DNA of 64,000 nt. It comes from Candidatus Methanoplasma cognatum. Its GTDB lineage: Archaea > Thermoplasmatota > Thermoplasmata > Methanomassiliicoccales > Methanomethylophilaceae. The stretch spans positions 372,001 through 436,000 of the forward strand of contig WRLM01000001.1 of the NCBI GenBank assembly GCA_009777615.1, written 5' to 3'. Under the pieces are notes generated by a model, which was not told the DNA's origin, ran no database searches, and saw nothing but the letters and a program-made list of their open reading frames with translations. Made by a program: the position numbers and the translations under genes. Below are positions 17,599 through 48,827 of the stretch, in pieces; the first letter of the stretch is position 1; the number at the start of each line of letters is the position of its first letter.

Positions 17599-17615
17599 TT
17601 GGATTTATATGCCAA
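17599..17615. promoter_or_regulatory. Shared 17-bp operator, site 2 (chlI-chlD-cobN operon)
   Basis: TTGGATTTATATGCCAA, one base off the symmetric consensus, 26 bp before the chlI ATG. A TATA-like ACTGTAATAAG lies just upstream at 17581-17591. Confidence 0.75.
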
Positions 17616-17641
17616 CTATGCATTGCGTACTCCGTGAGCCA

Positions 17642-20523: not shown

Positions 20524-20528
20524 TTTTT

Positions 20529-28503: not shown

Positions 28504-29660
28504 ATTGATCCCTCCGCATCTACTTCTGCAGCTTTATCAAAAAGCATCATTGCCATTGCCAGGGTCAGCATCTCTGCGGGCGTTTCAGTCAATTCGAAAC
28601 GTTTTCTGAGAACAGGGTCTTCCATTGAGGGGCCCTCCATTGTTGCTTTGAGTATTCCTCTGCAGGCATCGGTGCCGGCCTCGGGAAGTATCAACCCCCA
28701 CTCCATTTCATCCATTACGTGTAAGACCGCGGACACTATCGCAGCCGCTGAAGCATCTTCTGAAAGTCTCCTGCGGCCTTCCTTCAGAGTCTTCATTTTG
28801 AATGGATATCTCATTTCATTATGGCAGTTGATCTCAGTTATCTTGTGCCTAGATATCATAAGGTATGGGTTGCACTCTGCTTCTGGGTTCATCATCGACT
28901 GGTCGTCCAATGCTTTTGCGAGGGTCTTCTCGACGCACTCTCTTATCGCCTTTGCCAGCTTGGAACCGTTGCTATATTCTGCGACTTTGTTCCTGCTTCC
29001 TTTGTTGCATAACACTGTGACCTGGTCTGTGCCCGATCCTGTTGCTATCCCATTAGAATACAGACTCTTTCCCATCAGTTTCAATAATGTTCTGCTCTTA
29101 GCTTCGGTGGCTGTCATCATCGCCCCCAACAATGCGCTGTCAGGGAGGTCGGCATCTATCGCCAGGATTATCACGATGGTGCCGCTCTTGTTAAGTGCTC
29201 TTTCCATCTCATCGTGGCTCGCGGGGTCTCCTGCACGGCCCCCATTACCGCGGATCCCGCCTGTTATCGCCATCGATACCTCTATCCCGCCTACTTCCGT
29301 TGAGTCGATCGCCGCATTATCCATGTGTGCTGCGGTTCCCAAGCCTAACGTAGAAGACGGGTCCAAGTCGAGAAATCTTGCATATTCCTCCGTGCGCATA
29401 TTGTGGAATTCTATCGGCTTCCCCATGTTGCTGTACTCCGCACTCCCGCCGATGCTTGTGGTATTGAATATCGCTGACGGAGAGGACATGAACCCTCCGT
29501 TGAAGTTGCCTGTGGACAGTGCCCTCCAGTCCTTTGACGGAGGTGTCACTATCAGAGATCTGTTTTGTCTGTGAACTGACACCCCGCAGGGGAACTCCCG
29601 TATCATTCTGCGCTCCTCTTTCTTCTCTGCGGACACTATATCTTTCCAGTCGCCTGCCAT
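28500..29660 (-). CDS. CbiZ-like adenosylcobinamide amidohydrolase family protein, longer copy
   Basis: A 386-residue protein with clear CbiZ features: WRALSTGNFNGGFMSSPSAI, LGLGTAAHMDNAAI, MTATEAKSRTLL and IATGSGTDQVTVLC. Known CbiZ proteins open cobinamide or pseudo-B12 to adenosylcobyric acid so that the lower ligand can be replaced. ATG 29660 sits behind GGAG, and the GTG at 29669 is a less likely start. It is longer than usual CbiZ (about 220-250 residues) because of a C-terminal extension. It lies directly after the binding-protein gene at 29723-30826, separated by a weak hairpin. Confidence 0.78.
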   Translation of the reverse strand: MAGDWKDIVSAEKKEERRMIREFPCGVSVHRQNRSLIVTPPSKDWRALSTGNFNGGFMSSPSAIFNTTSIGGSAEYSNMGKPIEFHNMRTEEYARFLDLDPSSTLGLGTAAHMDNAAIDSTEVGGIEVSMAITGGIRGNGGRAGDPASHDEMERALNKSGTIVIILAIDADLPDSALLGAMMTATEAKSRTLLKLMGKSLYSNGIATGSGTDQVTVLCNKGSRNKVAEYSNGSKLAKAIRECVEKTLAKALDDQSMMNPEAECNPYLMISRHKITEINCHNEMRYPFKMKTLKEGRRRLSEDASAAAIVSAVLHVMDEMEWGLILPEAGTDACRGILKATMEGPSMEDPVLRKRFELTETPAEMLTLAMAMMLFDKAAEVDAEGSI

Positions 29661-29679
29661 TTTGTTCACTCCTTTGTTT

Positions 29680-29722: not shown

Positions 29723-30826
29723 TTAAGCGTTTATCTGCTCCCAGAACAACTTTGAATATTCGACGTAGTTGGAGCTGTCGAACACATTCGTTATATCAAA
29801 CGTCAGATGGTCTTTGTAAATGAACATCGCATAGATCGCATATGCTCCCACGATGCCTTGCTCATAGAAAGCTGTGGGGCTCCTCGCCCCTCCGGACAGG
29901 GCGAATATCAGCTCGTTTTTCGCTGCGCCTGTATTTCCAATAATGGGGTCGGCATACAAAGATTCTATAAATTCAGCCGGGACCACAAGGTCATAGATTT
30001 CAAGACCTGTGTAGATTATTATGTCGGGATTGACGCTTGCTATCGATTCCGTTGAGACGAGGGCGGTTCGATCTACACTCTCGAATGCGTTGTCGGCGCA
30101 TAGATCCGTCAATATGTTCCCAGGTGCGGAATTCCTGCCATTGGCATATGTTGCACTTATCATGAGGGCAACACGGTATTTCTCCCCTTTCATCTCATCA
30201 GTGACTATAGATTCACACCAGTCGGTTATTTTCTTTATCGCAGATTTCATCTCGGATATCATTTTCTCGGCTGGCTGCTCCCTGTCGACCGCTTTGCCCA
30301 CAAGCTCAATGGTATCATATACCTCTTTCATGGAACCGGGGGTTTGAATTACAATGTATGTTATGCCGAGCGCGTCTAATGCAATACGTATCTCCTCGTT
30401 CGTTGATTGGCATATCACAAGGTCTGAAGGTACCGAAGCCAAAGTCTCTGCCGGCATGAGGTACATGGGCCCGAGCGCAGCTATCCTGCCGCTGCTGATA
30501 CCGTCGGTTATGGCCTTGGGGAAGTCGTCGTCGGTCAGCCCTATGACGTAGGGATCCTCGTCGTATATGCCCGTATCGATTGATACTCCGACGATGTTGG
30601 AGCTCAGTCCCAGCCCGCAAAGTATCGCTGTGGGCACGACGCCCGAGGATATTATCCTATCGGTTGAGGTAATAGTCACCTCCCTGCCGAGGGTATCGAC
30701 CACGGTGACCGGCCCGCCGCCACTTTTATTGTCGTCGCCTGTAGTAACGATTATTGCCGCTCCGGCAACAACTACTATGGCCGCCACCGCCAAGACTGCA
30801 ATTATTGTTTTATTATTCATTGCCAT
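29723..30826 (-). CDS. Membrane-anchored substrate-binding protein, FecB/BtuF type (type A)
   Basis: A 367-residue binding protein of the PF01497 class, anchored by an N-terminal helix (KTIIAVLAVAAIVVVAGAA) without a lipobox. Core motifs include DTLGREVTITSTDRI, PTAILCGLGLSSNIVGVS and VNPDIIIYTGLEI. The ATG at 30826 follows GGTGA; the frame opening at 30871 runs through the operator and is not the start. No permease or ATPase is adjacent. It groups with the copies at 46301 and 47706 by the shared ILCGLG(L/V)SSNIV segment. The cbiZ-like genes follow on the same strand. Confidence 0.88.
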   Translation of the reverse strand: MAMNNKTIIAVLAVAAIVVVAGAAIIVTTGDDNKSGGGPVTVVDTLGREVTITSTDRIISSGVVPTAILCGLGLSSNIVGVSIDTGIYDEDPYVIGLTDDDFPKAITDGISSGRIAALGPMYLMPAETLASVPSDLVICQSTNEEIRIALDALGITYIVIQTPGSMKEVYDTIELVGKAVDREQPAEKMISEMKSAIKKITDWCESIVTDEMKGEKYRVALMISATYANGRNSAPGNILTDLCADNAFESVDRTALVSTESIASVNPDIIIYTGLEIYDLVVPAEFIESLYADPIIGNTGAAKNELIFALSGGARSPTAFYEQGIVGAYAIYAMFIYKDHLTFDITNVFDSSNYVEYSKLFWEQINA

Positions 30827-30834
30827 TTCACCAA

Positions 30835-30851
30835 TTGGATATATAATCCAA
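30835..30851. promoter_or_regulatory. Shared 17-bp operator, site 5 (binding protein plus cbiZ-like genes)
   Basis: TTGGATATATAATCCAA, a fully symmetric match, 8 bp before the ATG at 30826. An ACATATTTA element lies just upstream on the minus strand. Confidence 0.85.
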
Positions 30852-30924
30852 CTAAATATGTTGTTTATCATATTTGTATTATTCCTTTCTCAGAAGCAGT
30901 GTCATGACCGAGATGACAGAGTTG

Positions 30925-30957
30925 AAAATAAAAAATAAGAGCGGTGCTTTTTGCACC
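30925..30957 (-). terminator. Terminator after a monocistronic binding-protein gene
   Basis: On the minus strand GGTGC-AAAAA-GCACC is followed by GCTCTTATTTTTTATTTTC, just after the stop codon of the gene at 30966-32045. Confidence 0.65.
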
Positions 30958-30965
30958 CATTTTTC

Positions 30966-32045
30966 TTAAGAGTTTATCTGCTCCCAGAACATCTTCAGAT
31001 AGCTTACGTAGTCGTCCCCCATGTATTGATCGATCTGAAATTCTAAGTGCTCCTCATAAATGAACATCGCCATCAACGCTACCGCATTTACAAACTCCAC
31101 GGAGGTCGAGCTGAACACGCTACTGCAAGTGTCTACAAAGCAATACATTCTATTGTCTTCCACTGCGGACAGACTCTTCAATATGGGATTCGTTTTTATT
31201 GAGTCAAAAAAGACTACGTCGCCGCCACCGGATATTATTACGTCCGGGTTAACAGTTACAATGCCTTCCTGAGAGGTCAGCTGGTAGTTCCCCGGGATGT
31301 TGAACGCATTTACTGCGCCCAGCATCTCTATCAGCACTGTTCCTTTGTAGAATTCCTCTCCGCAGGCGTATGCCCCGCTTTCCGAAAAAGATATGAACAC
31401 TCCCACTCTGGGGGAATCGTCAAAGGATTTAGTCCAATCTGCAACCTTTTTTATCGAAGATTGCATTTGATCCAGAAGAGTTTTGGCTTCTGACACTTTT
31501 CCGATCGCTTTGCCTATCAGTTCGATATTGTAATAAAAGTTCTCAATGGAAGAGTTGTCTTTGCAGAGCACAATAGGTATCCCCATATTCTCCAGCTGGG
31601 ATATCGTATCCTCACTGCTGCCATATATGTTCGCTATTATCAGGTCCGGACTGCATTGAAGGATGGACTCCGCCGATATGCGGTACATTCCTCCAAGATC
31701 AGTGATCGTCTCGTTGTTCAGCCCGTTTACCACCGACTGAGGAAACCCATCGTCAGTGACCCCCATAATATAGTCTTGGGTCCTATAGCCGCCCGTATCG
31801 ACGCTGACTCCCGCGAGTTTATCGTATCCCCCCATGCCGCAAATCATCTCCGTGGCGGAATAGTTCACAGACGCGACCCTGTCTGAAGATGTTATTGTGA
31901 CGGTCCTTCTGGCACCGTCGATGAGAGTCACGGGGCCGTTGTCTTCTTTGTTATCCGGAAATGCTGTGTAAACTGCCGCAGCGGCAACAACTACTACGGC
32001 CGCCACCGCTAAGACTGCAATTATTGTTTTATTACCTATTGCCAT
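30966..32045 (-). CDS. Membrane-anchored substrate-binding protein, FecB/BtuF type (type B, copy 1)
   Basis: A 359-residue protein with the same plan as its neighbours: an N-terminal anchor helix, then a two-lobe binding domain (GARRTVTITSSDRVASVNYS, ICGMGGYDKLAGVSVDTGGY, VNPDVIISGGGDVVFF). It differs from type A in the ICG(M/L)GGY(D/S)KLAGV segment. The ATG at 32045 has GTGATG upstream, and other ATG/GTG codons at 32051 and 32054 are possible. Own operator and own terminator make it a single-gene unit. It may serve either importer in the window. Confidence 0.87.
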   Translation of the reverse strand: MAIGNKTIIAVLAVAAVVVVAAAAVYTAFPDNKEDNGPVTLIDGARRTVTITSSDRVASVNYSATEMICGMGGYDKLAGVSVDTGGYRTQDYIMGVTDDGFPQSVVNGLNNETITDLGGMYRISAESILQCSPDLIIANIYGSSEDTISQLENMGIPIVLCKDNSSIENFYYNIELIGKAIGKVSEAKTLLDQMQSSIKKVADWTKSFDDSPRVGVFISFSESGAYACGEEFYKGTVLIEMLGAVNAFNIPGNYQLTSQEGIVTVNPDVIISGGGDVVFFDSIKTNPILKSLSAVEDNRMYCFVDTCSSVFSSTSVEFVNAVALMAMFIYEEHLEFQIDQYMGDDYVSYLKMFWEQINS

Positions 32046-32054
32046 TTTCATCAC

Positions 32055-32071
32055 TTGGATGTATAATCCAA
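32055..32071. promoter_or_regulatory. Shared 17-bp operator, site 6
   Basis: TTGGATGTATAATCCAA. A TATA-like AAATATATTTA lies about 5 bp further upstream on the minus strand, so the repeat would cover the start of transcription. Confidence 0.85.
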
Positions 32072-32144
32072 CTAAATATATTTATCATAATATTTGTACT
32101 ATTCTTTTTTAAAGGACGGCGTATGATAAAGAAACAAAGATAGA

Positions 32145-32175
32145 AATAAAAGTAAAAATGGCGCCTACTGGCACC
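32145..32175 (-). terminator. Terminator after a monocistronic binding-protein gene
   Basis: On the minus strand GGTGCC-AGTA-GGCGCC (one G-U pair) is followed by ATTTTTACTTTTATTTC. Confidence 0.6.
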
Positions 32176-32183
32176 ATGCTTCT

Positions 32184-33269
32184 TCAAACGTTGATCTGAT
32201 TCCAAAATTTATTAAGATAATCCATATAGTCATCGCCCATTTTGTGCGGGATCTCAAAGTCCAGATAATCCTCATACATGAACATTGCCACCAATGCGAT
32301 CGCGTTCACGAACTCTATTGAGGTCGATGACCACGGAGAGCTGCTTAAGCCGATAAAGGAATACACCCTTTCTGTTTGTACTGCGGTCAAGCTTTTCAAT
32401 ATCGGGTCTGTGTGAATATAATCAATAGGGCCGTAGGCAGTTCCAGAAATTATTATGTTCGGATTTACGGCAATGATCCCTTCGTGCGATGTCAGCAGGT
32501 AGTTCTCTGAAATGCTGAATGCATTCACCCCTCCGAGCATCTCTATCAGCGTTGTTCCTTTATAGAACTGATCGCCGATCGCCCACGCGCCTCCCGTTTC
32601 CGAAAAGCTGATGAACATTCCTATTTGGGGGACCTCATTTATCGATTTGGTCCAATCTGCGATCTTCCCGATTGCAGATTTCATTTGTTCGACGACAGTT
32701 GTGGCCGCTGATTCTTTCCCAATCGCTTTACCCATCAGCTCGATGTTGAAGTAAAAGTTCTCAAGGGAAGTATTGGGCCTGCACATAATAACGGTTATTC
32801 CCATGTTCTCTAGCTGAGACACTGTATCTGCGCTGCTTCCGTGGGGGGCCGCTATCACAAGGTCTGGATTTGCACTAAGTACGGTTTCAGATGTAACAGA
32901 GCCGTTCGGACCAAGATTTTTTATCGTTCCGTTGTTCATCCCGTTGACCACAGACTGAGGGAACCCGTCATCGGACATCCCTAATATGCGATCCGGGCTA
33001 GCATAAGTGTAATTATTGTTGTTAACAGTTACCCCCACAAGTTTGCTGTACCCCCCTATTGCACAGATGTTCTCTATTTGAGAATAATCTAAAGAGACGA
33101 TCCTGTCTGAAGATGTAATGGTGATTGTTCTGTCATCCCCGTCGATGAGAGTCACCGCACCGCTGCTTTCTTTGTCACTAGACGTCAATACAAAAACCGC
33201 CGCACCGGCAACAATGATCATAGCTACTAATGCCACAACCACAATGATTGTCTTCTGGCCAATTACCAT
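32184..33269 (-). CDS. Membrane-anchored substrate-binding protein, FecB/BtuF type (type B, copy 2)
   Basis: A 361-residue paralogue closest to the copy at 30966-32045, sharing TITSSDR, ICAIGGYSKLVGVTVNNNNY and FISFSETGGAWAIGDQFYKG almost in register. It has the N-terminal anchor helix and no lipobox. I use ATG 33269; the GTG at 33278 is directly against the operator. The differences from its neighbour cluster in the likely ligand-facing loops, which suggests related but distinct ligands. That is inference. Confidence 0.87.
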   Translation of the reverse strand: MVIGQKTIIVVVALVAMIIVAGAAVFVLTSSDKESSGAVTLIDGDDRTITITSSDRIVSLDYSQIENICAIGGYSKLVGVTVNNNNYTYASPDRILGMSDDGFPQSVVNGMNNGTIKNLGPNGSVTSETVLSANPDLVIAAPHGSSADTVSQLENMGITVIMCRPNTSLENFYFNIELMGKAIGKESAATTVVEQMKSAIGKIADWTKSINEVPQIGMFISFSETGGAWAIGDQFYKGTTLIEMLGGVNAFSISENYLLTSHEGIIAVNPNIIISGTAYGPIDYIHTDPILKSLTAVQTERVYSFIGLSSSPWSSTSIEFVNAIALVAMFMYEDYLDFEIPHKMGDDYMDYLNKFWNQINV

Positions 33270-33278
33270 ATTTACCAC

Positions 33279-33295
33279 TTGGATGTATAATCCAA
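33279..33295. promoter_or_regulatory. Shared 17-bp operator, site 7
   Basis: TTGGATGTATAATCCAA, 9 bp before the ATG at 33269, with a CATATAGAG element upstream. Confidence 0.85.
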
Positions 33296-33345
33296 CTCTA
33301 TATGTGCCTCATGATATTTGTACTAATCTCTTTTAAAGACCATAA

Positions 33346-33376
33346 GAAAAAAAATAAAAATGGTGTCATTTGACAC
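33346..33376 (-). terminator. Terminator after a monocistronic binding-protein gene
   Basis: On the minus strand GTGTCA-AA-TGACAC is followed by CATTTTTATTTTTTTT, 8 nt after the stop of the gene at 33385-34461. Confidence 0.65.
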
Positions 33377-33384
33377 AGTGTTTC

Positions 33385-34461
33385 TTAAGAATTGATCTGT
33401 TCCCAAAATAGCTTGAGATAGTCCGGATAATTGTTGCCCATGTAATGGTCGATCTTGAAGTCAAGATAGTCTTCATACATGAACATGGCCATGAATGCAT
33501 ATGAGTTCACGAAACCTTGAGAGCAAAGGCCGAATGACGTATTGCATGTTTCGAATGCGCCATATATCTTGTTGTTTTTGGCCGCATTTATCTCCTTTAA
33601 TAACGTGTCTGTCGTTATCGCATCCAGATCAGCTCTGCTTGGAGAACCGTTGTCGATTATGATGTCGGGGTTCGCGGTAACGATCGCTTCAGTTGAGATG
33701 GGAGTGTACATTCCGGGTATTTCTCCAGAAAATGCGTTAATACCTCCGAGTGCAGTTATCATAGGTGTACCCATTATGTATGTGTCGCCGTTTGTGTATA
33801 CATTACCATAACCGAATCCCATAGACACCATTACTCTTTGAGGAGCAGCGTCAATAGACGCGGTCCAATCGATGACCTTACCGATTGCAGATTTCATCTG
33901 GTTGATCAATGTTTGTGCTTCAGACTCTTTTCCTATTACTTTTCCTATCAGATCGATATTGAAGTAAATGTCCTCTAGTGAGTTATCGTTCCTGCAGACA
34001 ACGACAGGAATACCCATATTCTCAAGCTGAATTATTGTATCTTCATTGTTGAAGTACCCTCCCATAATAACAACATCTGGGTTTGCGGGAAGTATGGCCT
34101 CCGTTGCTATCATATACATTCCGCCCATGTTAGTCAAAGTCCCGTTGCTTAGGCCGTCATTGATTATTTTCGGATACCCGTCATCCGGCATGCCCATAAC
34201 GTATTCGTTGACAGCATAGGAACTGTCAACGGTTACGCCGGCAAGTTTCGAGTATCCTCCCAGTCCGCAAATTATCTCTGTGACAATTGAGGATGTTGCC
34301 GCTATCTTGTCAGTGGACTCCACGTTTATAGACCTTCCCAGACCGTCTTTGAGTCCTCCTTCGTCATCATCATTTGACGTCAACGCAACAGCTGCCGCAG
34401 CGACAATGACAATAGCCACCACAGCCATGACCGCTATTATTGTTTTCTGGTTCATTACCAT
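33385..34461 (-). CDS. Membrane-anchored substrate-binding protein, FecB/BtuF type (type B, copy 3)
   Basis: A 358-residue binding protein with an anchor helix, then DGLGRSINVESTDKI, ICGLGGYSKLAGVTVDSSYA and TANPDIIIDNGSPS. It is the first of four tandem binding-protein genes on this strand and the most diverged of the type B set; the FISFSE segment of the others is replaced by VSMGFGYGNVYTNGDTYIMG. ATG 34461 or the one at 34455 could start translation. It has its own operator and terminator. Confidence 0.87.
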   Translation of the reverse strand: MVMNQKTIIAVMAVVAIVIVAAAAVALTSNDDDEGGLKDGLGRSINVESTDKIAATSSIVTEIICGLGGYSKLAGVTVDSSYAVNEYVMGMPDDGYPKIINDGLSNGTLTNMGGMYMIATEAILPANPDVVIMGGYFNNEDTIIQLENMGIPVVVCRNDNSLEDIYFNIDLIGKVIGKESEAQTLINQMKSAIGKVIDWTASIDAAPQRVMVSMGFGYGNVYTNGDTYIMGTPMITALGGINAFSGEIPGMYTPISTEAIVTANPDIIIDNGSPSRADLDAITTDTLLKEINAAKNNKIYGAFETCNTSFGLCSQGFVNSYAFMAMFMYEDYLDFKIDHYMGNNYPDYLKLFWEQINS

Positions 34462-34869: not shown

Positions 34870-35466
34870 TCAACGATCTGTTACCTCACACCTCTGGTAC
34901 TCACAACCGCACATTTTGGTAGATTCGGGTACTTTTGCAGTAATGAGGTTCTCCTTGACATCATCGAGCGTGAAAGTTTTACATATCAAGTATGCAGCCT
35001 CGTTGTACTTATTTGCGGTGGCAATCGTCCCGCCGACCAGCATATACGGGCTTATGCTGTGCTCGAACGCCCCATAATATGTTCCCATAACGCAGTATTG
35101 TGTCACCATGCCCGCAAGCAGTATGCTGTCGCATCCGCATTCTTTTACGGCATCAGCAAGCTTGGTCTTTTGGAATGAGTTCATATGCTCTTTGTGGACA
35201 ATGATATCTCTTGGATCCGATATGATTCCGTGAAGATACTCGTCACCGTCGTCTTTGCTGTATGATGAGCAGTGGCACGGGCCGTCGTAATAGATGAATA
35301 TTACCGGTCTGCCGTTTTCACGGAACATCGCCGCAGCATTATTGATCGTCTCAACGCATTCTTTGCAGCTGTCCTCAGATATTGTTCCTCCTGTGAACTT
35401 TCTCTGCACATCCACAACCACCAGGGCAACTTTCCTGTCTTTTTTCTCGGGTAACTCCGTTGACAT
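34870..35466 (-). CDS. Isochorismatase-fold cysteine hydrolase
   Basis: A 198-residue member of the isochorismatase/nicotinamidase superfamily. The Asp-Lys-Cys triad is present: Asp19 in VVVDVQ, Lys in IVHKEHMNSF, and the nucleophile Cys in MVTQYCVMGT. Several extra cysteines (CHCSS; CGCEYQRC at the end) are unusual. Superfamily members hydrolyse amides, vinyl ethers or carbamates, and the substrate is not predictable. ATG 35466 is chosen because the operator ends 2 bp before it and a TATA-like AT-rich element lies about 28 bp upstream, giving a leaderless arrangement. It is divergent from the first nifH-nifD fusion. Confidence 0.85.
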   Translation of the reverse strand: MSTELPEKKDRKVALVVVDVQRKFTGGTISEDSCKECVETINNAAAMFRENGRPVIFIYYDGPCHCSSYSKDDGDEYLHGIISDPRDIIVHKEHMNSFQKTKLADAVKECGCDSILLAGMVTQYCVMGTYYGAFEHSISPYMLVGGTIATANKYNEAAYLICKTFTLDDVKENLITAKVPESTKMCGCEYQRCEVTDR

Positions 35467-35467
35467 A

Positions 35468-35484
35468 TTGGATGATACATCCAT
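35468..35484. promoter_or_regulatory. Shared operator, site 9 (hydrolase gene, variant)
   Basis: TTGGATGATACATCCAT, two changes from the site at 39083. On the minus strand TTAATAATATTA is directly upstream and the hydrolase ATG directly downstream. Confidence 0.65.
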
Positions 35485-35593
35485 ATTAGTTAATATTATT
35501 AACGATTGGTTTTCCAAAACATATGGCCGAACATCCAAGGTTTTGATGTCATTCTAACGGTTGACCGTGACCCTTTAAAGGGAACTCTTTGAG

Positions 35594-35631: not shown

Positions 35632-37740
35632 ATGTACGCAGTATCTATCTACGGCAAAGGAGGTATCGGGAAATCCACAATTTCCTCTAACATCTCATAT
35701 GGGTTGTCTGAGAAAGGATTTAACGTGCTTCACGTTGGATGCGATCCTAAACACGATTCCACGAAATTGCTTATGAACAGTATCCAACAGAACACTTTTA
35801 TGGATTATCTGACAGACAGCGATATGGCGAATCCGATCCTGGAAGGCTCTAATGGAGTGTCATGCATCGAATGCGGAGGCGCAATACCAGGATTAGGATG
35901 TGCCGGCAAAGGCATAGTAAGAATGTTCGACTATCTCAAGGAGAACTCCTCCGGAGATTATGACATACGGATACATGACGTGCTGGGGGATGTGGTATGC
36001 GGAGGATTTTCAGTACCTATGAGAAAGGAGTTCGCAGATGCGATCGTCCTGGTAATATCTGATGAGTTCATGTCCATATATGCAGCGAACAATATATTGA
36101 TCGGCATAAGGAATCTGAACAACGGCCCGTGCATATTAGGCGCTGTCATCAACAGAAAGACACTCGACAAAGGACATTTTGCGGAGGAATTCGCCAGGGC
36201 CGCAAAACTCCCGATATTGGGCAGAGTATCTAAAAGTGATGCGTTCGCACAGGCGGAAAGGATAGGGTCTACAGTATTGGAGTCGTTCTCCGAATCAGAC
36301 TCTGCATACGAGATACGCAATATCATCGACATAATAATCGAAGCCGCTAAGGGTAGCATAGATCTGGCCCTGCCGTACCCCCTTACCGATGAGGCCATGG
36401 AAGGGATCATTTCAGGTAAATGCGTTAAAGCTGAGAAACTTCCTGATAAAGAGATAATCTTTGATTTTGACTTCTACGATCACGGGGTGGGTATGAAGTA
36501 TTTCGGTAATTATGTGACGCCTTGCTGCACTTCGCACGGCGGGGTCAAACTGCTGCAGGAGATGTCCGACGTGGGAATCGTTCTGCATGGACCAAGGAAC
36601 TGTGCTTTCCTGATGGAATACTCCAACCTCAGAAGGTCTTATAAAACACGGTCTTTGACCGATGAGCCGTCTTTATTCAATCTTTACAGCACATGTATGA
36701 GCGATGATCTTACATTCAAAGGAGATACGGAACGGATAAAGGAGACCGTAGAAAAAGTGGCGGAGAAAGGTTACGGCAATATATTCATATTACCCACTTG
36801 TGCGCCTGCGGCAATGGGTACGGATCTGAAGGGAATAGCAGATGAGATCTCCATTGAAGGAGTGAATGTTATTGCGGTCCCCGAGGACAGCCTATTCTTA
36901 AGCAGCAAGTTCGGATGTTTAGATGGCGTCCTGAGACGCATGAGCGGTATGCTGGACCGAAACTTGGAAGTAATACCTGATACGGTCAACCTCCTTACAT
37001 ATTCCATATCTGTTCTGTCGAGGCCTGAGAACATTGACGAGATCAGTGAGATACTAAATGCGGTCGGCCTCAGGCCCAACACGGTTTTCGCAAGGGGCGT
37101 TTCGATAGAGTCCATAAAGAAAATGCCCTCCGCCGAATATAACATACAGGTCGGGGTTTCCATGCTAGGTGACAAGATCACAGAGATACTGACCGAAGGG
37201 AGGGAACATATTGTCCTGAGAATGCCGCACGGCCTGTATGAAGTTAAGGCATGGATCTCAGCCTTGTCCGAGATGACGGGGAGGCATGGATCAGGCGATG
37301 CATACCTCCGCACTATCGAAAAGAACTACTATGACTCCATCAATGAGATGAGGAAGTATACTGAAGGCAAAACCGCTATGATATATGAGAGGGTGGGCAG
37401 CGATATGGACTGGTACATCGACACCCTGCTTGACATGGGAATCACCGTCAAATGCTTTGCGCATTGGAAATGCAACCTCCTGAAAGACAACGATAAAGAG
37501 ACCAGACATAAAGAGATAGAGCATATCTACGATCTCCCTCTCTGCGAGGTCAAAGGTCTCATGGACAAAATGGGCTGTGACATCTTGGTCTCCGGCGATC
37601 CCCGTGTGGGAAGGATCGGTGCGAATTGGGTGGGTTTGAACACTAATTTCACAGGGTTGAGAGGAACCCTATACTGGGCGAAGCGGGCCCGGAACGCTTT
37701 TCGTATGCCCGCATGCGACGGATGGAGGGATCCCCAATGA
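35632..37740 (+). CDS. NifH-NifD-like fusion protein, copy 1 (nitrogenase-like reductase)
   Basis: A 702-residue fusion. Residues 1 to about 245 are a NifH/BchL-type ATPase with P-loop GKGGIGKS (8-15), DPKHDST and the [4Fe-4S] ligands Cys90 (PGLGCAGKG) and Cys123 (GDVVCGGF). From about 285 on is a NifD/BchN-like domain with Cys299 (or 298), Cys324 (HGPRNCAF) and Cys390 (PTCAPA). Their 25 and 66 spacing is close to the NifD P-cluster ligands (Cys62, 88, 154 in Azotobacter). In known systems reductase and catalytic subunit are separate proteins, so the fusion is notable. Its stop overlaps the next ATG. The substrate is inferred to be a tetrapyrrole. Confidence 0.9.
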   Translation: MYAVSIYGKGGIGKSTISSNISYGLSEKGFNVLHVGCDPKHDSTKLLMNSIQQNTFMDYLTDSDMANPILEGSNGVSCIECGGAIPGLGCAGKGIVRMFDYLKENSSGDYDIRIHDVLGDVVCGGFSVPMRKEFADAIVLVISDEFMSIYAANNILIGIRNLNNGPCILGAVINRKTLDKGHFAEEFARAAKLPILGRVSKSDAFAQAERIGSTVLESFSESDSAYEIRNIIDIIIEAAKGSIDLALPYPLTDEAMEGIISGKCVKAEKLPDKEIIFDFDFYDHGVGMKYFGNYVTPCCTSHGGVKLLQEMSDVGIVLHGPRNCAFLMEYSNLRRSYKTRSLTDEPSLFNLYSTCMSDDLTFKGDTERIKETVEKVAEKGYGNIFILPTCAPAAMGTDLKGIADEISIEGVNVIAVPEDSLFLSSKFGCLDGVLRRMSGMLDRNLEVIPDTVNLLTYSISVLSRPENIDEISEILNAVGLRPNTVFARGVSIESIKKMPSAEYNIQVGVSMLGDKITEILTEGREHIVLRMPHGLYEVKAWISALSEMTGRHGSGDAYLRTIEKNYYDSINEMRKYTEGKTAMIYERVGSDMDWYIDTLLDMGITVKCFAHWKCNLLKDNDKETRHKEIEHIYDLPLCEVKGLMDKMGCDILVSGDPRVGRIGANWVGLNTNFTGLRGTLYWAKRARNAFRMPACDGWRDPQ

Positions 37741-39041
37741 ACACGGAGCCAGATGGTTTTATCGGCGCGGTCCTTGCGACAGAAGGCACATCCGACATGA
37801 GGGCTCTGATCAACGGCCCGGGAGGCTGCCGTTCCAGGGCACAGATCCTTTTGAAAGAGCTCGTTCGAGATTATATGGGGGAAGAACCGGGGTGCTGCTC
37901 GTCAAAATATTTCAGCAGGCAATCCAGACTTCCTTGCACTTATCTTAATTCCAATGACATAGTGATGGGTTCTTCGGGCAAGATCGTCGACGGGATAGGT
38001 TCACTTCTTTCCGTTACAGGATCAGACATTGTTATGATAGACACCCTTGGCGCATCTATACAAGTGACAGACAACGAAGAGGCTGTCAGAAGGTCTGGAG
38101 GGGAGGACAGGGTCATTCTTGCAAACAAATATCTCTCTAATATGTCAGTATATGAGGGATTCGACGATACGATGAAAAGGATAGTTGAACACATCTGTTC
38201 GAAGACATTGAGTACGATCCCCAATTCTGTCAACATCCTGGGCTACAATATTTCTGACGGGGGTTGGGAATATGGTAAAGAGGAGATATCACGAATGATG
38301 AGAATGCTGGGATTGGAGACAGTCTCCTTTATCGGATGCAGTTGCAAAAAAGAAGATGTGGAGCGGTCATGCGGCGCAGAACTAAACATCCTCATACACC
38401 CCGAATTCTCGATCGAGACTGCAAAATACTACTACAAAGAATTCGGCATCCCGTACCTGATACCCAGGTTGGGGTCGCCCATCGGATATCCGTCGCTGGC
38501 ATCTTTCGCGTACGATGTATCGGATAAGTTTGGGGTCGACCCGGGGGGATTATTGAACGAGATCGATTCAGAGAGATCCAGGGTCAACAAGATATTGATG
38601 AATTCCGAGAAAGCGGGAGGAAGTCTGCGCGGCAGCAGTTGCTCCGTGACCGGTATATCTTCGGATGTGCTTCCGATCATCAAATGGATGTTTGACCATC
38701 TGTCGGTCATGCCTGGATATATAAAGGTCCTTGGACCGGCAACGCTTTCTACAGAGAACCTTATGAAATATCTGCGGGATACGGACTGCATTGATTCACT
38801 TGAGGCAGACCCTTCCGGCTTCTACGACATTGCTTTCACAGACGGTATGTCTGCGGAACAGATCAGAAAAAGCAGCAGCATAACAACCTGTGTAGAGACC
38901 AGGTTCCCTTTTAGTCACGGGACTTCATTCATAAACCGGAGCCTTATCGGAACTTATGGATGCAGGTATATCCTGGATGAGATCATCAACGGCCACGGCT
39001 TATTACAATGCGGACAGCCGACAATGGCAGATTTCAGATAA
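37737..39041 (+). CDS. NifK/NifE/BchB-like partner subunit, copy 1
   Basis: A 434-residue nitrogenase-like subunit coupled to the fusion gene by an ATGA overlap, with GGAGGGA as ribosome-binding site. The motifs are INGPGGCRSR (Cys31) and RLPCTYL (Cys67) with GSSGKIVDGIG. The position 25 residues before Cys31, where NifK has its first P-cluster cysteine, is Asp6 (DGFIGA). The protochlorophyllide reductase BchB also has an Asp ligand (Asp36). The partner at 40872-42158 shares the Asp and the spacings. A DPOR-like cluster of three Cys and one Asp at the subunit interface is therefore plausible but unproven. Confidence 0.82.
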   Translation: MNTEPDGFIGAVLATEGTSDMRALINGPGGCRSRAQILLKELVRDYMGEEPGCCSSKYFSRQSRLPCTYLNSNDIVMGSSGKIVDGIGSLLSVTGSDIVMIDTLGASIQVTDNEEAVRRSGGEDRVILANKYLSNMSVYEGFDDTMKRIVEHICSKTLSTIPNSVNILGYNISDGGWEYGKEEISRMMRMLGLETVSFIGCSCKKEDVERSCGAELNILIHPEFSIETAKYYYKEFGIPYLIPRLGSPIGYPSLASFAYDVSDKFGVDPGGLLNEIDSERSRVNKILMNSEKAGGSLRGSSCSVTGISSDVLPIIKWMFDHLSVMPGYIKVLGPATLSTENLMKYLRDTDCIDSLEADPSGFYDIAFTDGMSAEQIRKSSSITTCVETRFPFSHGTSFINRSLIGTYGCRYILDEIINGHGLLQCGQPTMADFR

Positions 39042-39082
39042 TTTCCCCATTGATGCAGCATGTAAAAACCATTATTAACATA

Positions 39083-39099
39083 TTGGATTATACATCCAA
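39083..39099. promoter_or_regulatory. Shared 17-bp operator, site 11 (ABC-2 pair, copy 2)
   Basis: TTGGATTATACATCCAA. The ATPase ATG (39101) follows directly, and ATTATTAACA at 39071-39080 is about 26 bp before it, so the transcript is probably leaderless and begins at the operator edge. Confidence 0.82.
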
Positions 39100-39100
39100 T

Positions 39101-40027
39101 ATGTTGTCCCAGAACGATGATGTCCATACAGCCAGTAAAGACCTGTGCGAAGATGTTATCGATGCGGCGGGGATCGTAGTAAAGTTCGGTGATAAGACCG
39201 CAGTCGATCATGTCGACGTGAATGTCAAGCGAGGAGAGATATACGGTTTCCTCGGACCGAATGGCGCAGGCAAGACCACGACCATCCGTGTGCTCACCAC
39301 GCTTCTCCATCCATTGTCCGGCGATGTAAAGATCAACGGTTTCAGGATACCTTCGGAAAACAAAGAGATAAGGAAGCTGATCGGGTTCGTCCAGCAGATG
39401 ATCAGCCTTGATAAGGATATATCTGTGAAAGAGAACATAGTCTGCCACGGGTATCTTCAGAAGGTCCCAAAGAAAGATATACGCAAAAGGACGGAGAACA
39501 TATCCGCAGTATTGGGCCTCACTCCCTTTTTGGATTATGAGGTGGTCAAACTTTCAGGAGGATGGAAAAGAAAGACCGCGATCGCGTGTGCGCTTATGCA
39601 CGATCCGAAGATCCTTTTCCTGGATGAGCCAACAGCCGGATTGGACACTCAGTCCAGACATATGCTGTGGGACATGATCCGCCAGCTGAACAGCGCAGGG
39701 ACCACGATATTTCTGACCACCCACTACATAGAGGAGGCAGAGAACCTGTGCGACAGAGTGGCCATAATCGATAAGGGGAAGCGGGTTGCACTAGGAAGTC
39801 CAAAGGAGCTGTGTGAAAACATCGGACGTTTTGCTGTCGAATATGACGGTGAAGGCTGTGTCCGAAAGTACAAATATTTTTTAGATTGGGATGAGGCTAA
39901 GAGGTTCGTTGCAGAATTCGGCGATAACGATTCTGTCCTTTTAAGGAAGACTTCTCTTGAGGATGTGTTCCTGGAGATGACGGGAAGAGAAGTGACCGCC
40001 GATTTCGTCAAGGTCGTGAGGATATGA
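39101..40027 (+). CDS. ABC-2 type transporter ATPase, copy 2
   Basis: A 308-residue DrrA-like ATPase: Walker A GPNGAGKTT, LSGGWKRKTAIACALM, LFLDEPTAGLD and TTHYIEEAE. It closely follows the copy at 25325 (KYKYFLDWDEAKRFVAEFG corresponds to the YSYFDDREEANQYASKLG segment). ATG 39101 is used because the upstream frame from 39008 or 39053 would read through the operator and lacks family similarity. The permease start overlaps its stop by ATGA. It follows the nifK-like gene but has its own operator. Confidence 0.88.
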   Translation: MLSQNDDVHTASKDLCEDVIDAAGIVVKFGDKTAVDHVDVNVKRGEIYGFLGPNGAGKTTTIRVLTTLLHPLSGDVKINGFRIPSENKEIRKLIGFVQQMISLDKDISVKENIVCHGYLQKVPKKDIRKRTENISAVLGLTPFLDYEVVKLSGGWKRKTAIACALMHDPKILFLDEPTAGLDTQSRHMLWDMIRQLNSAGTTIFLTTHYIEEAENLCDRVAIIDKGKRVALGSPKELCENIGRFAVEYDGEGCVRKYKYFLDWDEAKRFVAEFGDNDSVLLRKTSLEDVFLEMTGREVTADFVKVVRI

Positions 40028-40779
40028 TCTTTTCTTTTTTTGATGAGACCTTCCGGGTATCTCTGCAGGACCTGTACTACTTCAAACGGAATATCCTGTC
40101 GATAATGATCACAATAATGGTCACGCCCCTTCTGTACTACGTATCGTTTTGTTATGGTCTCGGCTCTAATGTGAACAACATGGAGGGCGTTCCTTATGTT
40201 GCCTTCGTTATCCCCGGAGTCATCGCCCTTTCGACGCTTACATCCTGTTTCTCTTCTATAGCCAATAAGGTCTTGTCTCAGAGGATATATTACACATCTT
40301 TCGATGAGATAATCCTCTGCCCGATATCGCCTTCGGCTGTGATCTTCGGAAAGGCACTGATCGGTTTCATAAGAGGGATGATAGGGTGCTTCATACTGCT
40401 CGCGATCGGTCTGGTAATGACCGACGGGCTGCACATAAGCGTTATGCTGATATTGAGCATAGCTGTATCATGTGTGGCCTTCTCTCTTCTGGGAGTATTG
40501 GTGGGATTCCTTTCGAACAGCCTGACGACCATAATTATGTTCACCACTGTCCTCGTGGTTCCAATGACATTTCTTTGCGGTACGGTTTTCTCAGTATCAT
40601 CTTTGCCGACAGGGCTGCAGTATATCATAGCCGCCATGCCGCTGACGTATTCCACAGATTGCATCCGCTCAGCGGCTCTGGATTGGTCGTTCCCGATGCT
40701 GTCCCTGCTGATAGTGATCGTCTGGAGCGTTGTGTTCTTCTCAATATGCTACTATATGTTGGTAAAGGGAAAGCTCTAA
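40024..40779 (+). CDS. ABC-2 type transporter permease, copy 2
   Basis: A 251-residue, six-helix permease paralogous to the one at 24522-25328 (YYVSFCYGLGSNVNNMEGVP against the LAFGYGVGTFVNDIE segment; SFDEIILCPISPSA against SFDEMMLCPLRFSS). Coupled to its ATPase. The duplicated pair suggests that two related compounds, or one compound under two conditions, are moved across the membrane. Direction cannot be read from sequence. A convergent gene end follows, and the 40780-40871 gap shows no clear terminator. Confidence 0.87.
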   Translation: MIFSFFDETFRVSLQDLYYFKRNILSIMITIMVTPLLYYVSFCYGLGSNVNNMEGVPYVAFVIPGVIALSTLTSCFSSIANKVLSQRIYYTSFDEIILCPISPSAVIFGKALIGFIRGMIGCFILLAIGLVMTDGLHISVMLILSIAVSCVAFSLLGVLVGFLSNSLTTIIMFTTVLVVPMTFLCGTVFSVSSLPTGLQYIIAAMPLTYSTDCIRSAALDWSFPMLSLLIVIVWSVVFFSICYYMLVKGKL

Positions 40780-40871: not shown

Positions 40872-42158
40872 TTACAGACAGCTGAATATCTCATCCAAGA
40901 TATACATGGAGCCGTTTATTCCATACACCGGCCGCGGTATGAAGTTGACGCGGTAAAGAGTGGGCATTGCGATATCTATGCCTTTCCTGCAGGTTCCTAT
41001 CATCACTTGACTTTCAGCTGTGTGCCCGTCTGTGAAGACAAAATCGACCTTCTGAGCGGGATCTGAGTTCCATGCTTCCCTGAGCCCTATCTCTCTTAGG
41101 AACCCCACAATGCAGGATACCATTTTGTCGTCCTCCCCTGGATCAACAGAGATGCTTGCCGGCACCATACAGAGGTACTCGTGCAGCCATTTTGTAAGAG
41201 GGTACGCAACGGAGCTGTCCGCCATTATAGTGAACCTTGAACATTTTACACGTCTCGAATACATCGATCCTTTGATCCTTCTGAACACACGCGCCTTCGC
41301 CTGGCGGATGCGTTCCTCCACTTTTGAAGTATCGGCCCCTATGATCTTCCCGATGTTCTTTGCCCAGTGTTCGACAGCGTCGAGTCCGACCGGTGCGCCC
41401 ATTTCGGAGAATATGGTCGGTATGCCGTATTTTTTTTCATACAGCTCGGCGGTCCTTTTGCAATATTCGGAGCTTATACATACGTTGTATTCTGCGGCCG
41501 TGGACTCTTCGAGATCTGATGAACTGCATCCGGCCCCCGGAGAGGATATAACCGTTATGCCCATGTCGCTGAGCAACGAAACAAATTCAGTGATGACGTC
41601 CTGCCAGTCTATTGCGGATATAGGCACTCCCAAAATATTCACGGATCTTGGGATCGTCTCCTTTTTCTTCGGGGACTTCCACTCTAATATTGATTTTATG
41701 GTGTGGTCATAACTGGATGAGAACGGCTGAGATATCAATGATTCCTCGACCGCCATGGCCTTATCCTTGAATCCTGCTCGTTCTATCGCATCCGTTATGT
41801 TATCGCCTATGAGCGCTGCCCCCGGAGAGTTTATGAAAACATCAAAATTATCATCGATCCTGCATATGGCTGGGATGCACTCCTCAAGTTTTCCCTCGGA
41901 ACCGTTAATGTAGTTATCCTCATCTATGTACGTACATGGCATCCTTGCCTGTCCGAAGAAATACGGCTGGGAATATTTTTTGAAGTCCGCAGGCTTTGCC
42001 CGAGGGTAGCACACCGAGGTCAAAAACGTATGATAGTTTCTGCATCCTCCCGGACCGTGCAGAACCGCCCTGCCGTCGCTGAAGCTTTCCACTGCCATAA
42101 GGGCGCCGGTGAAACCGTCCATGCATATCCTGTTGACTGTCACTGTATCTTCCTCCAT
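40872..42158 (-). CDS. NifK/NifE/BchB-like partner subunit, copy 2
   Basis: A 428-residue nitrogenase-like subunit, last gene of the operon that starts at 47410. It has LHGPGGCRNY (Cys39), RMPCTYID (Cys75) and GSEGKLEECIP. As in copy 1, the residue 25 positions before the first Cys is an Asp (Asp14, MDGFTGA), and the Cys-Cys spacing is again 36. Its start overlaps the upstream fusion gene by 19 nt. The C-terminus ends YILDEIFSCL, similar to YILDEIINGH of copy 1. It should pair with the second fusion protein. Confidence 0.82.
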   Translation of the reverse strand: MEEDTVTVNRICMDGFTGALMAVESFSDGRAVLHGPGGCRNYHTFLTSVCYPRAKPADFKKYSQPYFFGQARMPCTYIDEDNYINGSEGKLEECIPAICRIDDNFDVFINSPGAALIGDNITDAIERAGFKDKAMAVEESLISQPFSSSYDHTIKSILEWKSPKKKETIPRSVNILGVPISAIDWQDVITEFVSLLSDMGITVISSPGAGCSSSDLEESTAAEYNVCISSEYCKRTAELYEKKYGIPTIFSEMGAPVGLDAVEHWAKNIGKIIGADTSKVEERIRQAKARVFRRIKGSMYSRRVKCSRFTIMADSSVAYPLTKWLHEYLCMVPASISVDPGEDDKMVSCIVGFLREIGLREAWNSDPAQKVDFVFTDGHTAESQVMIGTCRKGIDIAMPTLYRVNFIPRPVYGINGSMYILDEIFSCL

Positions 42159-44305
42159 CCCTCTGTTGCGGGTACGGATACAAGATCTCCCATCTTCCGC
42201 CCAAACCTCAGTACGCTGTTTATTCCGGGCGCGGGGCGGGAGTACATTGCACTGCGTATGCCATCCAGCTCCATGAGTCCGCTGTCCGTCAGGACTATGT
42301 CGGGTGAGAAACTTTCTACATCAGCCAACAGGTCCTCCAGCAGATAATCATGTTTTATAGGCACTCCCTTCGGAAGAGATTTCGGCTCGGCCCTTTTCTC
42401 TTTCCAGTGGTGCGTAGGTCCTATTCCGACCGCTAATACCTCCATGCCCAGATCTGATACAAGTTCGACCAGCCAATCTATGTTCTGAGTGAATCTGTCC
42501 TCTATCAGTACTTTTTTCCCCTCTAGTTTAGGTCTTATTTTGCTTATTTCTAAGCTGTATCTATTTTCCTCTTCTGCTGCGATCGCTGTCGCTTTTTCCT
42601 GCATTCCAAGCTCTTTCCCTATCTTTTCTGAGAATCTGCCGTGTTCTCTTATCCCTATGGGCAGCGGCTCCGTATCCACAGGAACGTTCAGCTTACTGCT
42701 TACTAATTTAGCTATTTTCATTGAACTTCTGTCGTTGTCTATAATGTAATTCGTTTTACCTAAGCGAAAATTACGTATCGAATCCATGGATGATTCGTAC
42801 ATGAACCTGCAGTTGATCTTTATGCCATATGGGCGGAACAGGTCATAGACCTCGTTCTCTGTGTCCTCACCCTGTCTGAAAAGATATCTTTCCGCAAGGA
42901 TGTTGACAGTATCTTCCCTTGGTTCCAGCGTATCATCTACCATGTCAAGAAGGGCGTTCGCGGATTCGGCGAACCCCACTTCCCATTCTCCAAGAATGTT
43001 CCCGTCTGCTTCGACCACCCTGAAATAAACATCCGGATTCTCGTTGCTTATGGCATTCACAACATCAATGGCATTATCTCCTATTATCCCAGATACGCAT
43101 GATGTGACGACAAAGATGCTCTTGTGCCCTTCAAGGATCATATTTCTTATCTTCTCTTCCAAAAGGCCAGCACCGCCGAAAACAGATATCGTATCGTCCA
43201 TATCGGTTGAAACGATCCTCATCGACTGCAGACCTTTCCCAGTCTTGCCGCTTCCTTTCCTGATCTCAGATATATTCCTTGAAGAGGACATTATGTGTGC
43301 GCAGCTTCGGGGGCCGTGTACTATGACAACAGAGTCGATCACAGAGGAGCAGCCATAGACCGCCCCTGCTGTTGCACAGGAGCCGACCACGTTCTTTTCA
43401 GTGGTAACTTTGACTTTAGGTGCTTTTATGCACCCTCGACATGCTGCTCCCGATCCGACTGTGTCAAATTTCTCATTTTTTTTTACTGTCTCCCCTTTTG
43501 CTATCTGCTCCATTTGGGCATCGTTCAGGGGGTTGGAATCAAAAGGTGATGATCTTCCGTCCATTATGCTGATTATGTTGTCCGATATCTTTTCCAACTC
43601 TTTGGCGACATCCGAGTCGGGAAACATTTCCATAACTGTCTTCCCCGCCGCTTCCGAATCTGCGAACAGCTTACTTCTGGGTATGCAAGCAACGAGCGGC
43701 AGTTCGACTGCGTCTGCAAATCTCTTTACCGTTTCGTACTCATTCTCTACGCCGCGGCAGTTCAGGATTATGCCCGCTACTCTGGGAACACCCTTATCGA
43801 AGTTCTTGATCCCTTTGAGGATGTTGTTCGCGGCGTAAATCGACATAAACTCTCCGGATGTCACCAAGTATACTCCGTCCGCATACTCATTTCTCAACGG
43901 AACAGCGAATCCCCCGCACACAACATCTCCCAGAACATCATAGATCTTGACATCGAACTTCATATCGTCCAATCCCAGCTTCTTCAGCGTGTCGAATGTG
44001 CTGAGTATCCCCCTTCCCGCACAACCTATTCCCGGTTCGGGCCCTCCGGCTTCTACGCATTTTATCCCCTTTACGCCGTCAAGGACTATATCCTCAAGCT
44101 TCCTGTCATAAGGGGGGGTGCTGCGTATGTAGTTAAGGACAGTCGCCTGCTCTCTGCCTTGAAGAAGTGCCCTGGTGGAGTCGTGCTTCGGGTCGCAGCC
44201 TATCTGGAGAACCTTCGTCCCCTTATCGGCCAAAGAATAGGAAATGTTCGCCGAAACCGTGGACTTCCCTATTCCGCCTTTTCCGTATATTGCTATCTGT
44301 ATCAT
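42140..44305 (-). CDS. NifH-NifD-like fusion protein, copy 2
   Basis: A 721-residue fusion with the same layout as copy 1: P-loop GKGGIGKS at residues 8-15, [4Fe-4S] cysteines 95 (PGIGCAGRG) and 130 (GDVVCGGF), then a NifD-like part with Cys310, Cys335 (HGPRSCAH) and Cys403 (VTSCVSGIIGDN). These are spaced 25 and 68, close to copy 1. It also carries ACRGC (Cys289, Cys292) in the linker region, not seen in copy 1, which may hold another metal. The gene lies between an importer ATPase and its partner subunit in one operon, linking reduction with uptake. Confidence 0.9.
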   Translation of the reverse strand: MIQIAIYGKGGIGKSTVSANISYSLADKGTKVLQIGCDPKHDSTRALLQGREQATVLNYIRSTPPYDRKLEDIVLDGVKGIKCVEAGGPEPGIGCAGRGILSTFDTLKKLGLDDMKFDVKIYDVLGDVVCGGFAVPLRNEYADGVYLVTSGEFMSIYAANNILKGIKNFDKGVPRVAGIILNCRGVENEYETVKRFADAVELPLVACIPRSKLFADSEAAGKTVMEMFPDSDVAKELEKISDNIISIMDGRSSPFDSNPLNDAQMEQIAKGETVKKNEKFDTVGSGAACRGCIKAPKVKVTTEKNVVGSCATAGAVYGCSSVIDSVVIVHGPRSCAHIMSSSRNISEIRKGSGKTGKGLQSMRIVSTDMDDTISVFGGAGLLEEKIRNMILEGHKSIFVVTSCVSGIIGDNAIDVVNAISNENPDVYFRVVEADGNILGEWEVGFAESANALLDMVDDTLEPREDTVNILAERYLFRQGEDTENEVYDLFRPYGIKINCRFMYESSMDSIRNFRLGKTNYIIDNDRSSMKIAKLVSSKLNVPVDTEPLPIGIREHGRFSEKIGKELGMQEKATAIAAEEENRYSLEISKIRPKLEGKKVLIEDRFTQNIDWLVELVSDLGMEVLAVGIGPTHHWKEKRAEPKSLPKGVPIKHDYLLEDLLADVESFSPDIVLTDSGLMELDGIRSAMYSRPAPGINSVLRFGRKMGDLVSVPATEGWRKIQ

Positions 44306-47410: not shown

Positions 47411-47423
47411 ATGAAATCACCTG

Positions 47424-47440
47424 TTGGATGTATATTCCAA
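47424..47440. promoter_or_regulatory. Shared 17-bp operator, site 12 (importer plus reductase operon)
   Basis: TTGGATGTATATTCCAA, the same sequence as site 1 in front of the other importer. ATATTTATAAC lies upstream on the minus strand at 47455-47468. Confidence 0.85.
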
Positions 47441-47705
47441 CTGCATATCACTACTATGTTATAAATATATTACTTCCGACTAACTTCCCACCAGATGAGA
47501 AAGAAATGGTCGTTTCGTTGTGTAACCTGGCATCCGCAGAAGTTCGTATTTGGTCAGCGCTTGTCATCAGAAATTAATGGAAAGTTGGACGATGCAGATA
47601 GTTCTGCCTACCTGCATCAGAGCCTTTTTTATTCTGTTCTTTTGGTCATATGCCTTTTTACTTCATGTGCCGTTGCAGGAACCCTCTGGAAGAGTCGCCC
47701 CCAGT
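47441..47705. other. Intergenic stretch without a supported gene
   Basis: Contains the promoter of the 47410 operon and the 3' flank of the gene at 47706. A 73-codon plus-strand frame at 47495-47716 has no family likeness and overlaps that gene; I do not call it. Confidence 0.4.
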
Positions 47706-48821: not shown

Positions 48822-48827
48822 CACCAA

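Follow-up and report, generated by a model that had tools for sequence, protein, structure and literature searches.

Within a 64,000-nucleotide stretch of the genome of Candidatus Methanoplasma cognatum (the window), the gene at 35632..37740 encodes a NifH-like ATPase and a NifD/NifE-like subunit as one polypeptide. Together with the NifK/N-like partner encoded beside it, this fusion is, with a probability of about 0.6, a reductase powered by ATP that serves corrinoid salvage and acts on corrinoids or on tetrapyrroles closely related to them. The fusion architecture itself is already published, from 2012 onward: NifH-NifE/D fusions are mentioned without a function in the relevant passages of Dos Santos 2012 (PMC3464626), Borrel 2014 (PMC4153887) and an archaeal fusion survey of 2024 (PMC11237513), and the 2012 survey removed them before building its trees. 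What appears to be new from this analysis is the corrinoid context, the single origin and the division into two subfamilies. The open-access literature, to which the search was directed (most subscription journals and preprints lie outside it), yielded no fusion or nitrogenase-like enzyme tied to cobalamin riboswitches or to CobN.

Two fusion genes and their partners

The window lies at 372-436 kb on a contig of 648 kb, in a genome of 1.62 Mb that is 99% complete, and holds two fusion genes, each followed by a partner gene:

35632..37740, + strand: copy 1 of the fusion, of type B; residues 1-262 NifH, then a linker predicted to be disordered (about 263-298) and the NifD/E-like part (299-702)
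37737..39041, + strand: partner of copy 1, NifK/N-like; ATGA shared by its start and the stop of the fusion gene, GGAGG upstream; Cys39 and Cys75 (ORF numbering from 37713)
40872..42143, - strand: partner of copy 2, NifK/N-like; GTGA shared by its start and the stop of the fusion gene, GGAGG upstream
42140..44305, - strand: copy 2 of the fusion, of the common type A; NifH joined to a NifD/E-like part

Copy 1 is a frame of 702 aa that runs from ATG to TGA without an internal stop, in which Pfam recognises Fer4_NifH at residues 4-260 (E 2.4e-65) and Oxidored_nitro at residues 299-654 (E 8.7e-40). The P-loop GKGGIGKST, two cluster cysteines and a NifH fold place the first half in the NifH/Fe-protein ATPase superfamily, and the Oxidored_nitro domain with three alpha-subunit cluster cysteines places the second half in the nitrogenase component 1 superfamily (PF00148). 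The sequence-only reading had proposed an unbroken passage from a NifH with both cluster cysteines into NifD, and the open frame, the two Pfam domains and C90/C123 confirm it. Copy 2 (721 aa; Fer4_NifH E 3.2e-89, Oxidored_nitro E 1.9e-52) repeats the same domain plan, so that a covalent fusion is indeed present in two loci. The further argument that an assembly artefact is not involved also holds, given the 648 kb of surrounding contig and fusion matches in about 80 further genomes belonging to the family. Apart from the four genes of the window and CfbD, the genome search detected no PF00148 genes in this genome; separate CfbC and CfbD are encoded elsewhere in it, and therefore F430 synthesis is covered outside the window.

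As read from the genes, one NifH protomer is tethered to an alpha-like subunit, while the beta-like subunit is separately encoded and, judging from the 4-base ATGA or GTGA overlap, translationally coupled to its fusion. On the basis of this overlap a fixed stoichiometry of fusion and partner is plausible.

Cluster ligands and linker

In an alignment of 59 fusions the NifH cluster residues C90/C123 and the D-half residues C299/C324/C390 are invariant. The latter line up with NifD C62/88/154, which are P-cluster ligands, and with the cluster ligands of NifE and BchN. In the partner, C39 aligns with NifK C95, NifN C44 and BchB D36; the other two P-cluster positions of NifK are replaced (C70 by Asp/Glu, C153 by Pro), and the position of Asp36, the fourth ligand in DPOR, is occupied by Cys. 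Fusion and partner thus share in the alignment the 3+1 Cys arrangement of the NifEN-type [4Fe-4S] site, and the position of the FeMoco ligand Cys275 is not conserved among fusions. Because three D-half cysteines are joined by one partner cysteine and Cys275 is not conserved, the D/K interface is predicted to hold a four-Cys [4Fe-4S] cluster, not a P-cluster or FeMoco. Copy 1 has Thr in place of one extra conserved D-half cysteine (C499 in copy 2).

AlphaFold2 models copy 1 as two confident domains separated by residues 272-296 with pLDDT < 50. In comparison with PDB folds, the NifH half folds as NifH (TM 0.87 to 8q5v) and the D half as a NifE/NifD-like subunit (TM 0.77 to 9ian_A), with NifE among its best matches. 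Across the fusions the linkers measure 25-109 residues (median 36, mostly 25-56). The conserved linker that the sequence-only reading proposed to look for is therefore absent: the segment is variable and predicted to be disordered. That reading had also taken the fusion to imply a different electron-transfer cycle, which finds no support in a disordered, variable linker combined with retention of the NifH cluster, P-loop and switch residues. Since the linker is of this kind and the cluster and nucleotide-site residues are kept, tethered docking and release would still be feasible, and the simplest reading is that the Fe protein, though tethered, docks and undocks in the ordinary cycle.

It is very unlikely that internal initiation or processing yields the two halves as separate proteins. 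Copy 1 does carry an in-frame ATG288 behind GGGGTGG in its linker, an in-frame start with a Shine-Dalgarno-like sequence occurs in the linker of 14/59 fusions, and one relative (L089) has a TAG there; against this, 30 of the 59 linkers lack an in-frame ATG and the frames stay open in 59/59. Internal initiation in the linker was rejected because the element is not conserved.

The order Methanomassiliicoccales decodes TAG as pyrrolysine. In-frame TAG codons were observed in four fusion genes, in the linker at residue 278 in L089 (G090:C84) and at residues 474, 526 and 357 in L060 (G037), L067 (G072) and L207 (G085), respectively; they could represent read-through, a regulated split or decay.

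Genomic setting and origin

Both fusion sets are enclosed by a corrinoid/tetrapyrrole island, which spans 17.6-52.8 kb of the window and contains the following additional genes:

17609..18679, + strand: ChlI-like chelatase AAA+ subunit
18649..20523, + strand: ChlD-like chelatase subunit
20520..24320, + strand: CobN, class I cobaltochelatase large subunit (942 bits, cut-off 822)
24522-26185, - strand: second DrrA/DrrB-like ABC-2 exporter pair
27574..29669, - strand: two CbiZ-family proteins (adenosylcobinamide amidohydrolase family)
29723..34461, - strand: four tandem BtuF-type substrate-binding proteins
34870..35538, - strand: isochorismatase-family hydrolase, a recurrent neighbour of fusions
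39008..40779, + strand: DrrA/DrrB-like ABC-2 exporter pair, between both fusion sets
44327..45181, - strand: BtuD/FecE-type ABC ATPase
45171..46322, - strand: BtuC/FecCD permease (best NCBIfam model the B12 permease BtuC, below cut-off)
46301..48827, - strand: two BtuF-type substrate-binding proteins (46301-47410, 47706-48827)
48992..52768, + strand: second CobN (833 bits, cut-off 822)

The locus combines CbiZ with a BtuFCD-type importer, the pairing by which membership in corrinoid salvage was judged. The six BtuF-type paralogues (29723-34461, 46301-48827) are served by a single adjacent BtuC/BtuD set and suggest a range of corrinoid or tetrapyrrole ligands. Further along the window lie two very large proteins of 1352 and 1638 aa (53843-57901 and 58171-63087), one with a lamin-tail domain and one with a weak beta-helix match, which are probably located at the cell surface.

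The same surroundings are met in other genomes. Within 7 genes of the fusions of the order (n=56), NifK was found 48 times, BtuD-type genes 31, BtuC 29, ABC-2 genes 20, CobN 10, ChlD 7 and CbiZ 6 times. Entire islands recur at L040, L047, L049, L068 and in Methanoregula (L103), where nearly all of the window island is repeated. CobN is present in 81/91 fusion-bearing genomes of the order and in 3/56 others, where fusion-bearing means a PF00148 match beyond CfbD at E <= 1e-30, a definition that misfiles a few genomes. The association has the same direction in 10/10 genera that vary, these genus contrasts being the sole control for kinship; CobN was not detected in 10 fusion-bearing genomes, several of which are incomplete. 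A role in de novo corrinoid synthesis was considered and rejected: CbiH is present in fusion-less genomes, and in about 20 that carry a fusion it is missing or was not found, and therefore the fusion is neither part of the de novo pathway nor replaced by it.

Cobalamin riboswitches precede some of the bacterial fusions. One lies 166 nt upstream of the fusion at L102; others head the operons at L099, where a protein of AP_endonuc_2 comes next (CbiR, which remodels cobamides, belongs to this superfamily), and at L101, where cobalamin adenosyltransferase, BtuC and BtuD come next. A riboswitch within 4 kb upstream was found for 3/11 bacterial fusions against 0.07 expected (P = 5e-5), the expectation being derived from all riboswitches of the 11 fusion-bearing bacterial genomes on the same strand and upstream, with the 4 kb distance chosen post hoc; 7-8 of these 11 loci have no riboswitch nearby. 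The window contains no cobalamin riboswitch, and those seen upstream of fusions are bacterial only; none was found at seven other nif-like loci that were searched. At L111 the riboswitch is weak (34.6 bits), and SLH/alpha-alpha-toroid and DUF4430 proteins are encoded directly upstream of the bacterial fusion (L111:7287-9985), a pairing that resembles the two domains of intrinsic factor/transcobalamin.

A second nitrogenase-like lineage, with split nifHDK genes, occupies the same CobN/CbiZ/BtuFCD setting in Negativicutes (L123, L125, L127, L134). In Phascolarctobacterium (L134, L127) and Sporomusa (L125) these operons stand behind cobalamin riboswitches together with CobN, CbiZ and BtuFCD-type genes, and at L127 and L134 the riboswitch is directly upstream of nifH; these loci were chosen for their context and left out of the riboswitch test. 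They were rejected as direct ancestors of the fusions, since neither their NifH nor their NifD groups with the fusions in the trees and their NifK keeps all three P-cluster cysteines; convergent recruitment to the same setting is possible, and these operons would offer a clear-cut system for experiments.

With regard to origin, a single clade (support 99) unites the NifH halves of every fusion; it includes one NifH truncated by a contig end and is sister to CfbC/group IV NifH (support 80). The D halves likewise form one clade (support 98), with some frames called NifD alone nested inside: at L068 the NifH half has been lost, L089 is the fusion frame with the linker TAG, and L086 is cut by a contig end. 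As NifH halves and D halves each form one clade, the trees indicate that all tested fusions, archaeal and bacterial, derive from one old fusion event and have spread between archaea and bacteria. Two independent fusion events are rejected by both trees. The two copies in the window, which the sequence-only reading had counted as independent, are by the same trees old paralogues. The NifD without NifH at L068:14182-15507 (genome G073) stands in an operon after CbiZ and BtuFCD, with an intact fusion in the same island, and, if functional, would need NifH in trans.

The fusion is common among relatives, as a search of other Methanomassiliicoccales genomes, suggested beforehand, has established: 91/147 genomes of the order have a PF00148 match stronger than CfbD, mostly in frames of 700-800 aa, and copy 1 has a match at E <= 1e-60 in 81/102 genomes of the family. 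Among named genomes scanned outside the order, fusions occur in the archaea Methanosarcina KYL-1 and Methanoregula, and in bacteria in Clostridium tetanomorphum DSM 4474, Clostridiales SIT11, Treponema, Peptococcaceae, Lachnospiraceae, Oscillospiraceae and Myxococcota; in sampled Clostridia the frequency is about 1% (5/391). The Myxococcota fusion (L106) has 1085 aa, about 350 residues extra.

Type B forms a clade with support 100, comprising about 22 relatives of copy 1 in the family at 36-42% identity, with the signature residues C81, K93 and C638 (copy 1 numbering). These relatives in about 22 genomes, together with the invariant cluster residues, led us to reject the view of copy 1 as a decaying orphan. 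In type B fusions (L188-L207) CAGK replaces CAGR, whose Arg is the ADP-ribosylation site in classical NifH, at the NifH docking loop, and an extra invariant Cys is present. Type B loci other than the window are accompanied by transporters (7/20) and CbiK/CbiX chelatases (5/20), and neither CobN nor CbiZ was found near these 20 loci. Because of this, the corrinoid assignment of copy 1 leans on its paralogue and its location.

Proposed function and its alternatives

In the proposed mechanism the fusion would be the NifH+alpha subunit of a low-potential, ATP-driven reductase of the nitrogenase/DPOR superfamily, serving corrinoid acquisition and remodelling. The importers would take in corrinoids, CbiZ would trim the side chain and CobN-ChlID would insert or exchange the metal, after which the fusion would reduce either the metal, taking Co(II) to Co(I), or a double bond of the macrocycle. 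Since each D subunit carries one NifH, two fusions would provide one NifH dimer per (HD)2K2 complex, which would dock on one half of the complex at a time and hydrolyse ATP. Electrons would pass from the NifH [4Fe-4S] (C90/C123) through the four-Cys [4Fe-4S] (D C299/C324/C390 and K C39) to a tetrapyrrole held between D and K. Copy 1, of type B, likely acts on a related substrate, its subfamily elsewhere adjoining CbiK/CbiX chelatases. In aerobes the flavoenzyme CobR reduces Co(II) to Co(I) after CobN, and by analogy cobalt reduction following metal insertion is attractive here; ring reduction is attractive by analogy with DPOR. ATP already drives the reduction of a tetrapyrrole-bound metal in the activation of MCR (PMC12176620), and one NifH dimer per complex would match the one-at-a-time docking of nitrogenase described with PDB 7ut9. 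For another pair, NflD/NflH, the relevant passage of the 2012 survey suggested cobalamin reduction (PMC3464626).

The nearest known systems each share part of this arrangement. Like DPOR (BchL/BchNB) with the Mg-chelatase BchHID, one island holds a chelatase and a three-part ATP-driven reductase, whose cluster would here be held by three alpha-subunit cysteines and one beta-subunit ligand; unlike DPOR, the fusion system has Cys for Asp36, NifH fused to alpha, a non-phototrophic host and a distant sequence. Operon-2 of Dehalobacter restrictus, which stands under a cobalamin riboswitch and is up 346-fold on corrinoid starvation, comprises BtuFCD-like genes, CobN, two CbiZ and Mg-chelatase subunits, but no nitrogenase-like gene is mentioned (PMC4285132).

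Among the alternatives, a haem-type reading is unlikely; here CobN would de-chelate porphyrins and the fusion would act as a ring reductase on the freed or metallated macrocycle. Its model is HmuS, a CobN-family chelatase of a haem-uptake operon that removes iron from haem independently of ATP (PMC12583661). The ligand set is DPOR-like, and the FecCD/BtuF transporters fit haem or siderophores as well, which can count against the corrinoid reading. However, fusion operons hold cobalamin riboswitches, CbiZ, a CbiR-superfamily protein and cobalamin adenosyltransferase, and whereas HmuS has no need of ATP and no nitrogenase-like partner, the ATPase subunits ChlI and ChlD are present here. Quite unlikely, too, is a NifEN-like metallocluster scaffold coupled to metal import, which the 2012 survey suggested, in the passage concerned, for nitrogenase-like genes beside ABC transporters (PMC3464626). 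The four-Cys site (three NifE cysteines and the NifN C44 position), the fold match to NifE and NifB-like genes in nearly all genomes of the order (134/147) speak for it; yet the fusion lacks a nif operon and a client cofactor enzyme such as the NifDK to which NifEN hands over, its NifH is covalently attached, and the linkage to chelatase and CbiZ would be left unexplained. NifB-like genes are also as common without the fusion as with it, and the presence of NifB was dropped as a test for an L-cluster because it does not track the fusion.

A CfbCD paralogue in the synthesis or modification of F430 is very improbable, even though CfbC/group IV provides the nearest NifH relatives and the tetrapyrrole chemistry would be shared. 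CfbD has no beta partner, whereas the fusion has an adjoining NifK and is neither the sole PF00148 subunit nor part of an F430 locus; the genome already has its own CfbC and CfbD, 56/147 genomes of this methanogen order are without the fusion, and it also occurs in non-methanogens such as Clostridium tetanomorphum and Treponema. As for a nitrogenase or methylthio-alkane-reductase-type enzyme, the common superfamily and the NifB-like gene would agree with it, but the variable Cys275 position and the replaced C70 and C153 positions of the partner make it extremely improbable, a FeMoco/L-cluster active site being largely excluded by the ligand analysis.

Returning to corrinoid reduction, it is tentatively proposed, at somewhat less than even odds, that the fusions represent a new nitrogenase-like class with a corrinoid substrate, in which the built-in Fe protein works with CobN-ChlID so that salvaged B12-type cofactors can be re-metallated, activated or repaired anaerobically, and which would explain the CobN homologues of methanogens. 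The role of archaeal CobN homologues has been stated as unclear (PMC12583661), and the corrinoid reading, if true, offers an answer to what archaea do with them. The tether is an experimental handle on the docking cycle of the Fe protein, possibly in a natural system with one Fe-protein dimer per complex. The jobs assigned to nitrogenase-like enzymes are few (N2, protochlorophyllide, chlorophyllide, the F430 precursor, methylthio-alkanes and a sulfonate route); if the corrinoid reading is true, the superfamily would gain one more and be tied to the B12 economy of gut methanogens that live on corrinoid methyltransferases.
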